From a virus, in IMG/VR virus record IMGVR_UViG_3300000115_000145, positions 1-27,245 of that record: DNA of 27,245 nt. One strand, 5' to 3'. Shown here piece after piece: positions 21,928 through 27,245 of this stretch. The position numbers were made by a program, and so were the translations under genes. How positions within the stretch are numbered: the first letter of the stretch is position 1; each line of letters starts with the position of its first letter. The notes beneath the pieces were generated by a model, which worked only from the letters and a program-made list of their open reading frames with translations, had not been told where the DNA came from and searched no databases.

Positions 21928-22339
21928 TGAAAATCAAAAGAAACTAGGACTATGGTTAGCAAGTAGACAATGGTTACCACATGAATTTGGTACCAATGAT
22001 TGTTGCACATTGCTAATGCATTACCATGATCATATGTTTGGTACAAATACTGTTGATGAAATATACAATAAATACAATGACATGAAAAGTGGAATAAGAG
22101 TTGCAAGCAAGTTCTTAACAGTTGATGAATGGTTCCCAAAACACGGGTATCAGCGTGAATTTAACCCTCAAACAGGAGACATAGTAATGGTCCAAAACAA
22201 TAGATTTTTTCCAAGCACATATATAATATGTATGAGTCAAGCCTGGAGTATAATGGATGGTGCAAAGAAAATGTCAAAGCATATAATTGAACAACCAGAC
22301 GCAGAATACAGTATATGGAGACATAAAGAATGGGCCTAA
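21920..22339 (+). CDS. NlpC/P60-like (DUF6950-type) tail protein, 139 aa
   Basis: I take ATG 21920 (MRSENQKKLG) because the upstream ATG at 21818 is deep in the previous gene. The pattern WLPHEFGTNDCCTLLM (18-33) has the N-terminal catalytic cysteine region (C28 or C29) of NlpC/P60-like tail peptidases. QTGDIVMVQNN (84-94) is the conserved strand after the active-site helix. These enzymes cut cell-wall peptide bonds at DNA entry. The position matches GTA gp14. A distinct catalytic histidine is not obvious, so activity is uncertain. Confidence 0.7.
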   Translation: MRSENQKKLGLWLASRQWLPHEFGTNDCCTLLMHYHDHMFGTNTVDEIYNKYNDMKSGIRVASKFLTVDEWFPKHGYQREFNPQTGDIVMVQNNRFFPSTYIICMSQAWSIMDGAKKMSKHIIEQPDAEYSIWRHKEWA

Positions 22340-23787
22340 GTCAAGTAGCAAAGTTTTTTATCAAACTAGCAATCAGTCTTTACAGTTATAATCAACAGCG
22401 TAAAGCACAAAAGAAAGCTGAGCGTCAAGCAAGAGCGGCAAGATCCAATGTACTAATCAACAAACAATCAAACAATGATCCCATATACATTTTATACGGA
22501 AAACAGCGTATGGGTGGAACAAGAGTGTATGTAGACACATCAAACGGAAGTGGTGATCTAAGTGCAACTACAAAATTAAACTTTGTATTGGTTATGTGTG
22601 AAGGTGAAATTGGCACAGTTAAAGAAGTATACTTTAATGATACTGTTGTATGGGATGATTCAAATGGTGGAACATTGACCAGCAATGGTAATGGTGGTTA
22701 TACTTTAGGTGGATGGATTAGTAAATATGCACCAACAATCACAAGCAACTGGTATCCAGGAACAGATACACAAACAGTAGATACAAGCCTACAAGGTTCA
22801 GTTGGAAGCAGTGTATGGACATCAGCACACAGATTACAAGGTGTTAGTTACTTTACAATGTTATTAGAAGCAGATGGTGAAAAGTACGGTGGACAATTAC
22901 CAACAGTTACATTTGTATTAGAAGGTAAAAAGATATTAGATATAAGCACACTAACAGATGGTGATGTTATTGGTGATATGACTTCAGCTAACTATACAAG
23001 CAGTGCAGATCAAAACCCTGCAGATGTACTTTATGATTATTTGATTAGTAAAGTGTTTGGCAAGGGATTAGAAAGAAATGAAAATGAAGTTTGGATAGCA
23101 GGAAAACATGTTAACCTAGCCAGCTTCAAACAAGCAAGATTAGACTGTGCAGCAGCCAGAGGCGGAAGTGGATACAACATTAATGGCTTTCTACAAACAG
23201 AAAAACAATTGTTTGATAATGTAGGTGAGATACTAGAAACTTGCAATGGCATATTATTATTTGTAGATGGCAAGTATGAATTCCGTATCAAAAAGCCAAA
23301 TGAAGAAGTAGGTATTCCTACTAGTGCAATCTTTACCAAAGATACTATAGTTGGAAAAATAGAACTAAGTTTACCAGACAAAGCACGCAAACTAAACAAA
23401 GCAACTGGTTTATTCAATAACCCAGACACAAAGTACAATGATGATGTTACCATCTATGATAACACTACATACAGAGTTGCAGACAATGGAAGTGTACTTG
23501 AATCACAAGAAGATTACACTATGATTACTGATGCAGATCAAGTTTTAGACTTGATTACACAAACAGTAGATATTAGTAGAGATGAATATACAATTAAGTT
23601 TATAGCGGCACACACAGCATTATTGCTACGCAGTGGTGATATTATAGAAGTTAGACATGATGAATTTGGATGGGGTACTGGCGCAGGACAAAGTCAAAAG
23701 TATTTCCGTGTACAAGAACTTAAACTAACAGAAGACAACACTGTAGATATAATAGCTACAATATATGATAGTAGCAAGGAGTTATAA
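22330..23787 (+). CDS. Central tail tip protein (gpJ / GTA gp15-like), 485 aa
   Basis: The start overlaps the previous gene by 10 bases. The N-terminus has a short hydrophobic helix then a basic helix (NQQRKAQKKAERQARAARSN). Next come LINKQSNNDPIYILYGKQRMGGTRVYV and FVLVMCEGEIGTVKEVYFND, a pattern typical of gpJ-like hub proteins, followed by LLEADGEKYGGQLPTVTFVLEGKKI and NPADVLYDYLISKVFGKGL, the conserved hub core. It ends after the hub and has no long C-terminal fibre, so host binding probably depends on other proteins. It is at the end of the tail-tip operon. Confidence 0.85.
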   Translation: MGLSQVAKFFIKLAISLYSYNQQRKAQKKAERQARAARSNVLINKQSNNDPIYILYGKQRMGGTRVYVDTSNGSGDLSATTKLNFVLVMCEGEIGTVKEVYFNDTVVWDDSNGGTLTSNGNGGYTLGGWISKYAPTITSNWYPGTDTQTVDTSLQGSVGSSVWTSAHRLQGVSYFTMLLEADGEKYGGQLPTVTFVLEGKKILDISTLTDGDVIGDMTSANYTSSADQNPADVLYDYLISKVFGKGLERNENEVWIAGKHVNLASFKQARLDCAAARGGSGYNINGFLQTEKQLFDNVGEILETCNGILLFVDGKYEFRIKKPNEEVGIPTSAIFTKDTIVGKIELSLPDKARKLNKATGLFNNPDTKYNDDVTIYDNTTYRVADNGSVLESQEDYTMITDADQVLDLITQTVDISRDEYTIKFIAAHTALLLRSGDIIEVRHDEFGWGTGAGQSQKYFRVQELKLTEDNTVDIIATIYDSSKEL

Positions 23788-24181: not shown

Positions 24182-24727
24182 ATGACAACCCCGGCATATA
24201 AACTGGCAGAAAAAGAACCAGAAACAATAACCAAGCCAGAACTCAAATTAGTATTTAAACAAATACTTGAAGTAGAAGAGTATCAAAAACTAACACACTT
24301 TGTTTGGGTTAAACAATACCTAGAAAACATACCAGGAACATATAGTGTATATGCAATGTACAAAGATGGCATAGCAATTGCCACTAATGCATTATGTATA
24401 AATGAATGGTTAGATGCACACAACTTACCACGCAGAAAACCATTACATGAACAAACTATTAAAAGAAAACTGTTGTTTAACAGAGATGATATACAAAAAA
24501 TTGACAACAGAAGCAGTGAATTTGAATACACTCCAGCTAAACCAGGACGCAAAAAAGGTTCAGTAATAACCAGCAAACACGGTGAAAGAGTAGCAGAACA
24601 AATATGGGAATTGTTTCAAGACGGACATGTACCAGGTGATATAGCACAAGCAATAGGTTGTACACCAGCTAATGTTTATTATCACATAAAAAAGACACAA
24701 AAGAAGCTTGACAAACAAGCAGATTAA
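24182..24727 (+). CDS. HTH DNA-binding protein, 181 aa, candidate regulator
   Basis: The N-terminal 110 residues are a compact unknown domain (KLTHFVWVKQYLENIPGTYSVYAMY at 36-60). A basic AT-hook-like patch PGRKKGS lies at 121-127. Residues 135-176 form a C-terminal helix-turn-helix of the sigma-4/LuxR/response type: ERVAEQIWELFQDGHVPGDIAQAIGCTPANVYYHIKKTQKKL. It is the only clear DNA-binding regulator in the window, following the tail operon with a 76-base gap and an aaggaag ribosome site. It could activate the NATAAATA promoters, switch early to late genes, or act in packaging. The function is unproven. Confidence 0.7.
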   Translation: MTTPAYKLAEKEPETITKPELKLVFKQILEVEEYQKLTHFVWVKQYLENIPGTYSVYAMYKDGIAIATNALCINEWLDAHNLPRRKPLHEQTIKRKLLFNRDDIQKIDNRSSEFEYTPAKPGRKKGSVITSKHGERVAEQIWELFQDGHVPGDIAQAIGCTPANVYYHIKKTQKKLDKQAD

Positions 24728-24733
24728 TGTTAT

Positions 24734-24741
24734 CATAAATA
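24734..24741 (+). promoter_or_regulatory. T4-type late promoter core (CATAAATA), ncRNA
   Basis: An exact NATAAATA lies seven bases after the HTH gene stop, with ctaatag after it. What follows is a 220-base non-coding stretch with extensive pairing, ending in a terminator at 24944-24970. No ORF is present. The predicted start is near 24747. Confidence 0.65.
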
Positions 24742-24746
24742 CTAAT

Positions 24747-24970
24747 AGTAAATTAAAACACTAAGAGTATTCCTACAATTAGACAGTTACATTCTCCAAA
24801 TATAATGTTTAGTTTTAATTTATAGTTGTATAAGGGTAATCTTGGACTTCATTGCCAAGCTCCAACAAACACAATGAAGCGTATCATTACGCTATCCTTA
24901 TTGTGCCATGCCGTTAGGCCCTATACTTTATACAATGAGTTACAAAAACCTGCAGAAATGTGGGTTTTTT
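24747..24970 (+). ncRNA. Structured non-coding RNA with three-way junction
   Basis: No coding frame exists between the late box and the terminator. An 11-bp helix (24749-24759 with 24812-24822) closes the 5' half. A second domain has P1 (24831-24838 with 24893-24900), P2 (ttcattg 24848-24854 with caatgaa 24872-24878) and P3 (gcgta/tacgc 24879-24883, 24888-24892, loop tcat), with P2, P3 and P1 directly abutting, so a stacked three-way junction. It is not a tRNA. I recognise no family. A regulatory or anti-host small RNA, or an RNA scaffold, are possible roles. Confidence 0.65.
24944..24970 (+). terminator. Intrinsic terminator after ncRNA
   Basis: A 10-bp stem (aaaaacctgc 24944-24953 with gtgggttttt 24960-24969, two G-T wobbles), a 6-base loop and six T (24965-24970). 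It isolates the ncRNA from the sigma70-type promoter that starts two bases later. Confidence 0.8.
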
Positions 24971-24971
24971 C

Positions 24972-25000
24972 TTGACAAAAATACCAAACTATGCTATAGT
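24972..25000 (+). promoter_or_regulatory. Sigma70 promoter TTGACA-17-TATAGT with operator-like palindrome
   Basis: -35 TTGACA (24972-24977), 17-base spacer, -10 TATAGT (24995-25000). An inverted repeat aactat/atagtt (24987-24992, 24996-25001) overlaps the -10. This is the promoter of the gene at 25112, presumably an early gene read by host polymerase. Confidence 0.75.
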
Positions 25001-25052: not shown

Positions 25053-25060
25053 GATAAATA
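25053..25060 (+). promoter_or_regulatory. T4-type late promoter core (GATAAATA) in same leader
   Basis: An exact NATAAATA lies between the sigma70 promoter and the ATG at 25112. This gene can therefore be read early by host polymerase and late by the phage-type system. Confidence 0.6.
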
Positions 25061-25111
25061 ATAGTAACAAAAGAAGACTTTTGTTTACGGCAAATAAAAT
25101 AAGGAATTAAT

Positions 25112-26132: not shown

Positions 26133-26378
26133 ATGGTAGTAGAAATATACAGTTATGAATCAGGAATAAGATGCATAGATAAAAAGGAATACACAAGTCT
26201 AGAGGCTTGGGAAAAAGACCTTTTCATTTTGAAAATAAGAGGCATAGTAGGATATAAGCGTTATGATGAAATGGATATGGAACATTTTAATGAGTTAACT
26301 GAAACACAAAGAAACAATTTACCTTGCAAAGCAGAGTTTGACAAGGAAGCATACATAAACAAAGGAGAAACACAATGA
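26133..26378 (+). CDS. Hypothetical protein, 81 aa
   Basis: No family recognised. ATG 26133 follows aggag by seven bases. Small mixed alpha/beta sequence (MVVEIYSYESGIRCIDKKEYTSLEAWEKDL) with two cysteines, C14 and C65. First of three genes coupled by ATGA-type overlaps: its stop overlaps the next start at 26375. This tight small-gene cassette is typical of phage early accessory genes that inhibit host functions. Nothing identifies a target. Confidence 0.6.
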   Translation: MVVEIYSYESGIRCIDKKEYTSLEAWEKDLFILKIRGIVGYKRYDEMDMEHFNELTETQRNNLPCKAEFDKEAYINKGETQ

Positions 26379-26962: not shown

Positions 26963-27244
26963 ATGAATAACTATGCAGAACAATTTGAAACAGTAGCAAG
27001 GTATATTGCAGGTAAAATAGATAATGGATTTTATTTACCAATAACAGATAAAGAAACTGGTGAAATATTTGCTTATTCAGTATCTGGACCAGACAAGCCT
27101 TGGGCTGTTGCTTATGCTGACCCTGCCGCAGGTAATCAAGACTTCAATAAAGTATATTTGCTTGAACCAAACACAGATTATGAGTTAATTGTAACTATGC
27201 ATGTAGTAGAAGCACAAAAGCTAATTGCAAGGGAGACAGCGTAA
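26963..27244 (+). CDS. Hypothetical protein, 93 aa, under operator control
   Basis: No family recognised. An aaaggag site precedes ATG 26963. The sequence (MNNYAEQFETVARYIAGKIDNGFYLPITDKETGEIFAYSVSGPD) is a compact alpha/beta fold with aromatic-rich ends and no membrane segment or HTH. It is the only gene of its transcription unit: the palindrome-rich promoter at 26889 lies before it and, across the circle junction, the terminator at 57-92 ends it. Single genes under such tight control are often immunity, takeover or lysis-control factors. Its stop TAA lies in the terminal repeat. Confidence 0.65.
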   Translation: MNNYAEQFETVARYIAGKIDNGFYLPITDKETGEIFAYSVSGPDKPWAVAYADPAAGNQDFNKVYLLEPNTDYELIVTMHVVEAQKLIARETA

Positions 27245-27245
27245 T
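27232..27245. repeat. 14-bp direct terminal repeat, right copy
   Basis: Identical to bases 1-14. It includes the last codons and stop of the gene at 26963. See the left copy for the circular interpretation. Confidence 0.85.

Follow-up and report, generated by a model that had tools for sequence, protein, structure and literature searches.

A conserved two-domain RNA of uncultured marine phages with exposed anti-Shine-Dalgarno sequences

The genome of an uncultured marine siphovirus carries a structured non-coding RNA of two domains, the first closed by helix P1 and holding a hairpin, the second a four-way junction of helices P2 to P5. The RNA belongs to a new family of phage origin, and our best guess at its function is a variant of the anti-Shine-Dalgarno small RNA kind. 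By analogy with such RNAs we propose, with a probability of roughly 0.4, that it may act as a generic riboregulator directed against ribosome-binding sites. To our knowledge, only a small number of conserved structured phage RNAs have their own fold, and uncultured marine phages, which make up much of the ocean's viruses, account for very few of these.

The stretch of DNA analyzed here, referred to as the window, is IMG/VR record IMGVR_UViG_3300000115_000145, positions 1-27,245 (27,245 bases, 36% GC). It encodes siphovirus-type proteins, namely a large terminase, portal, tape measure and tail fibre J. Both ends (1-14 and 27232-27245) carry the same 14 letters, GGAGACAGCGTAAT, and the contig therefore probably represents a complete genome of ~27.2 kb that is circular (or circularly permuted). 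By portal protein, the nearest cultured phages are DSL-LC06 and the Pelagibacter phages HTVC026P, 111P, 112P and 202P, at only 37-38% identity. The features discussed below are the following.

24182-24727, + strand: upstream helix-turn-helix (HTH)-like gene, 181 aa, syntenic in relatives, outside the RNA
24708-24736, + strand: sigma-70-type promoter, -35 box TTGACA, 17-nt spacer with TG, -10 box TATCAT, 11/12 consensus matches
24743-24970, + strand: whole RNA transcript, ~228 nt, 5' end inferred from the promoter and 3' end from the terminator
24748-24823, + strand: domain 1, helix P1 (arms 24748-24759 / 24812-24823) and inner hairpins, from the fold and swap test
24789-24808, + strand: domain-1 hairpin ACAUU-CUCCAAAUAU-AAUGU, from the fold, with UUCUCC at 24792-24797, complement of the Shine-Dalgarno sequence GGAGAA
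24825-24936, + strand: domain 2, four-way junction closed by P2 (24825-24835 / 24926-24936), z -4.2
24834-24837, + strand: GGGU, start of J2/3, in 24/24 homologues, gone in the divergent forms L082, L090 and L098
24841-24859, + strand: P3 hairpin CUUGG-ACUUCAUUG-CCAAG, from the swap test, with loop CAU at 24850-24852
24860-24863, + strand: CUCC directly 3' of P3, anti-Shine-Dalgarno core, in 24/24 homologues and in L082, L090 and L098
24870-24905, + strand: P4 hairpin, variable in length and sequence, from the fold and covariation (helix 3)
24910-24919, + strand: short P5 hairpin GCC-GUUA-GGC, then CC, from the fold and covariation (helix 4), GCAG/CUGC in relatives
24944-24970, + strand: intrinsic terminator hairpin and U-run, from the fold
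24972-25000, + strand: next promoter TTGACA-17-TATAGT, directly 3' of the terminator

Transcription unit and relatives

An earlier reading made from the sequence alone had placed a structured non-coding RNA at 24747-24970, behind a late promoter and ahead of a good terminator. The region holds no plausible gene: the sole same-strand open reading frame of at least 40 aa is a 49-aa TTG frame, and none is kept among the 24 homologues. The terminator hairpin was found as described, and in relatives its stem letters vary with pairing retained. The late reading of the promoter is not supported: it is of sigma-70 type, with TTGACA at 24708 and TATCAT at 24731, and TTGACA stands exactly 17 nt 5' of the -10 box in all 24 homologues. 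Transcription would start near 24743, and the promoter type suggests synthesis by host RNA polymerase from early in infection. In the window and most relatives, the terminator is followed at once by a new promoter. With a promoter and terminator of its own and this second promoter immediately after, the RNA is predicted to be a stand-alone, independently transcribed unit. The upstream gene overlaps at its end with the -35 box of the RNA promoter. Its 181-aa product has a weak C-terminal HTH match and could possibly regulate the adjoining RNA.

The first close homologues were identified in IMG/VR via this neighbouring HTH protein and DNA patterns. In a wider search, an HTH profile added L046 and L047, a further pattern added L060, and a profile of tail fibre J returned 80 loci; a covariance model built from six sequences then found the RNA in more contigs, just downstream of J. 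The final set comprises 24 distinct RNAs with covariance-model E values down to 1e-20. Relatives share the genomic place of the RNA just after the HTH-type gene, and in every relative examined this is the end of the structural-gene block. The RNA core persists where the HTH neighbour drops to 30% identity (against L060), which argues that the phages need the RNA, and it also persists across two types of tail fibre J that are 37-39% alike. Tail fibre J, encoded at 22330-23787 in the window, occurs in both types among phages with closely related RNA and other flank, an arrangement that we read from the sequences as module exchange.

By covariance-model and pattern searches, the RNA was detected only in this group of viral contigs. 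Six pattern matches in cellular genomes had no P2 partner and were taken as chance. Similarly, of 62 loci retrieved with a looser pattern in a search for spread to other phages, a single new one fitted the model and lay on an already known contig, and a second weak match in L077 (E 0.37) was also ascribed to chance. The cultured phages DSL-LC06, HTVC026P and HTVC112P, those examined among the nearest by portal, had no copy of the RNA.

Fold and covariation

The window RNA folds at -55.4 kcal/mol against -37.7 kcal/mol for shuffled sequences (z -4.4, 0/200 shuffles as good), and the opposite strand reaches only z -1.7. In the fitted alignment of the 24 RNAs, 90.0% of cells are paired versus 72.5% after shuffling, and 19 of 25 pairs show two-sided changes. 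The covariation score is 0.396, compared with 0.126 for shuffled alignments and at most 0.10 (0.096) for slid partners; none of 500 shuffles reached any of the observed pairing or covariation values. Compensatory changes, which the sequence-only reading had put forward as the test of its proposal, are thus present in the homologues and favour an RNA.

A fitted alignment tends to favour its own model, and we therefore added two checks, arm swaps between relatives and unconstrained folding of single sequences. With arms delimited by conserved anchors, own arms paired better than swapped ones for P2 (-12.1 vs -8.1 kcal/mol), P1 (-10.6 vs -5.3) and P3 (-6.1 vs -1.8); swaps between near-identical relatives were uninformative, as expected. 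Model-free folding recovered P2 and P3 in all sequences and the four-way junction in nearly all.

The 11-bp closing helix claimed earlier corresponds to P1 (11-12 bp), which covaries. In P2, 6 of 10 pairs show two-sided changes and 100% of cells are paired; its arms read GUUGUAUAAGG/CUUUAUACAAU in the window, GUUUGCAAGG/CUUUGCAAAC in L074 and GUUGUAUCAAGG/CUUUGAUACAAC in L078. The second domain had been described as a stacked three-way junction (24831-24900) closed by TAAGG and CCTTA. Two of its helices stand, the former P2 and P3 being the actual P3 and the tip of the actual P4, but the closing helix does not: CCTTA is absent from 16 of the 24 homologues and is not paired in this way in the minimum-energy fold. 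TAAGG is instead the inner end of the 11-bp P2, where its partner is CTTTA at 24926-24930, and the junction is four-way.

The conserved unpaired strands are GGGU in J2/3, CAU in the P3 loop, CUCC after P3 and GCCC after P5. Two tertiary contacts were considered and rejected. A pseudoknot between the P3-loop UUCAUUG and CAAUGAAG of P4 is striking in the window, but L007, L008 and more distant relatives keep the loop without the partner. Likewise, for the loops of domain 1 and P3 to kiss through GGA/UCC, a GGA would be needed that is not retained in L057, L060 and L067.

Divergent forms that the model did not detect lie at the syntenic place in L082 (6395-6620), L090 (7079-7330) and L098 (6698-6950). 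L082 and L090 have the helices in the same order, and L098 keeps P1, a long P2 and P3. The form in L090 carries CCUCCUUUCU, which we take to be the usual anti-Shine-Dalgarno sequence of the 16S rRNA 3' tail. Domain 1 itself varies: in L054 (10451-10700) it has shrunk to a plain short hairpin, and the UUCUCC hairpin is therefore dispensable in that lineage.

Exposed elements and proposed function

Among the unpaired elements, CUCC after P3 is the best kept; it reads CUCCUU(U) in several families and CUCCAA in the others. Since L082, L090 and L098 lose GGGU and keep CUCC, pairing with GGG is not the sole reason for the conservation of CUCC. In most homologues a second element, UUCUCC, occupies the loop of domain 1. 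In the clade of L067, L069, L072 and L088 it is absent from domain 1 and present in the terminator loop, and it is missing from L054, L073, L078, L080 and L081. Because this element relocates yet stays exposed, it is the motif and not its place that is kept, which points to base pairing with something else. Predicted unpaired probabilities are 0.67-1.0 for CAU, 0.65-0.82 for UUCUCC and usually above 0.7 for CUCC. The family thus shares with small RNAs bearing exposed anti-Shine-Dalgarno elements a conserved, exposed Shine-Dalgarno complement, although CUCC is predicted to be largely paired with GGG in L057 and L080 and partly so in L078 and L081.

We gathered 198 start regions of these phages without any Shine-Dalgarno filter. 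The most enriched upstream hexamer was AAGGAG (33 seen, 0.9 expected), followed by AGGAGA, with GGAGAA in eighth place (24 vs 1.1). Their complements, CUCCUU, UCUCCU and UUCUCC, match both conserved exposed elements, a complementarity that was spotted after the fact. All 24 homologues also have CAU, which is complementary to AUG, at 6-10 nt 5' of CUCC, a distance that mirrors the Shine-Dalgarno-to-AUG spacing. It is on this mirrored spacing and on the complementarity to enriched hexamers that we base the proposal that the RNA covers ribosome-binding sites. The four-way scaffold would present short single strands (CUCC or CUCCUU after P3, the UUCUCC hairpin loop and the P3-loop CAU) that may base-pair with mRNAs of the host, the phage or both, at their Shine-Dalgarno sequences and start codons. 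Such pairing would block 30S initiation, as with small RNAs that have anti-Shine-Dalgarno loops, and protein production could thereby be switched off during infection. If pairing with start sites is general, the phages would possess a compact RNA means of control over translation. The more ambitious version, in which the scaffold with its mirrored ribosome-binding site and movable UUCUCC loop makes a new class of phage RNA acting as a global inhibitor or selector of translation initiation, is in our view doubtful.

Compared with random phage DNA, start regions are predicted to pair more strongly (-9.2 vs -7.1 and -6.7 vs -4.2 kcal/mol), and start sites of the same phage show no advantage over start sites from other phages (-9.17 vs -9.06 kcal/mol). 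No start in the window stands out as a target, and the best duplexes in the window fall inside genes. Because own and foreign start sites are equivalent and the best window duplexes are intragenic, the RNA does not seem specific for the phage's own genes; it may act on host mRNAs, have a general effect or bind a protein. The gene at 26375, whose CAAUGAA matches the window loop, was considered as a specific target and rejected: in relatives the start context diverges from the loop beyond AUGAA, and own pairs score like foreign ones.

A protein target leads to a somewhat unlikely alternative, a decoy or scaffold RNA whose junction (GGGU, CUCC, GCCC and UACU) and CAU loop together build a binding site in three dimensions. 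Such a site would sequester or redirect a protein of the host, for example RNA polymerase, a ribosomal protein, a defence sensor or a nuclease. Besides the failure to find a specific mRNA target, this reading would account for a four-way junction that exceeds what base-pairing small RNAs need, and for junction strands that are nearly invariant among the 24 beyond CUCC; with GGGU, GCCC and UACU nearly as conserved as CUCC, all four could form one tertiary core. Yet the divergent forms without GGGU (in L098 also without GCCC) still carry CUCC, and a UUCUCC that sits in another loop in one clade suits a linear pairing element over a tertiary site.

In our estimation it is improbable that the RNA works in trans as an antisense RNA to one particular host mRNA, with the P3 loop and CUCC complementary to the start site of that mRNA. 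The order and spacing of CAU-N6-10-CUCC are indeed those of a complemented start site, and the c4 RNA of phage P1, with loops that pair around a ribosome-binding site, is a phage precedent (PMC12197685). Loop letters outside CAU, however, vary widely (UUCAUUG, UUUCAUG, GCAUUGU, GACCAU), and a single target would have to track them.

The P3-loop CAU, present in all 24 homologues, also bears on a highly improbable reading, mimicry of initiator tRNA, in which the hairpin imitates the fMet anticodon arm and diverts an anticodon nuclease or initiation factor. L073, with its 5-bp stem and 7-nt loop UU-CAU-UG, comes closest to such an arm, but the base 5' of CAU can be G, C or A as well as U, the loops differ in length, ARAGORN reports no other tRNA features, and L082 lacks CAU.

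There is very little to recommend a cis-acting leader (riboswitch or attenuator) of the downstream genes: a terminator does follow the structured domain, but a new promoter follows it immediately instead of a regulated gene on the same transcript, the downstream genes vary between relatives, and inspection by eye shows no alternative helix between P2' and the terminator stem. We give equally slight credence to a packaging, virion or replication RNA (pRNA-like or primer RNA), which the compact junction and the position after the structural genes would suit, but the large terminase and portal of the phage are of the ordinary kind, Rfam yields no packaging-RNA matches, and the promoter is of sigma-70 type.

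Relation to known RNAs and further observations

The earlier view that the RNA fits neither a tRNA nor a known riboswitch is borne out: all helices covary, Rfam 15 gave 0 gathering-score matches for the window and 11 relatives (sub-threshold matches were weak and differed between relatives), and ARAGORN called no tRNA or tmRNA. We found no description of the RNA in the open-access literature.

Control of translation by loops complementary to ribosome-binding sites is known from alpha-r14 and c4 RNAs, and our anti-ribosome-binding-site proposal draws on them by analogy. The alpha-r14 or 'cuckoo' small RNAs of Rhizobiales (e.g. NfeR1) have anti-Shine-Dalgarno hairpins and, like the phage RNA, combine variable stems with more than one motif per RNA, retained in unpaired regions (PMC10746234, PMC3927594). 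There, however, CCUCCUCCC, a motif absent from all 24 sequences, occurs in each of three or four separate hairpins; here the fold comprises a P1 domain and a P2-P5 four-way junction, the elements are UUCUCC and CUCC, and the carriers are phages. The c4 antisense RNA of P1 and P7 (RF01695) is likewise a phage-encoded structured RNA with loops thought to pair with a ribosome-binding site (PMC12197685, PMC2864571). In contrast to c4, which targets the ant mRNA in P1/P7, the present RNA is a stand-alone unit of other fold, with no Rfam match to c4 in the window and 11 relatives and no specific complement at any window start. The manA and wcaG motifs of marine cyanophages are also structured RNAs of marine phages (PMC2864571), but they are cis-regulatory and precede genes, whereas here a free RNA has its own promoter and terminator and no Rfam match to either motif. 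Finally, CfrI (Cyanophage functional RNA I) of S-PM2 is a marine phage RNA of similar length (~225 nt; PMC12197685), but it is antisense to the psbA region; here the opposite strand encodes nothing kept in relatives, and no psbA was seen.

Two further observations concern other units. In the window (25059-25111) and relatives, the unit that comes after the RNA has a 5' leader in which a small inverted repeat, AAAAGAAGACTTTT, precedes the next gene, and this repeat recurs in several relatives upstream of different genes. In L091 (6640-6790), and also in L093, the syntenic place after the tail-fibre gene holds a different promoter-terminator unit of ~110 nt, in which two hairpins flank an unpaired UUCUCCA; it is perhaps an unrelated small RNA with the same exposed motif.
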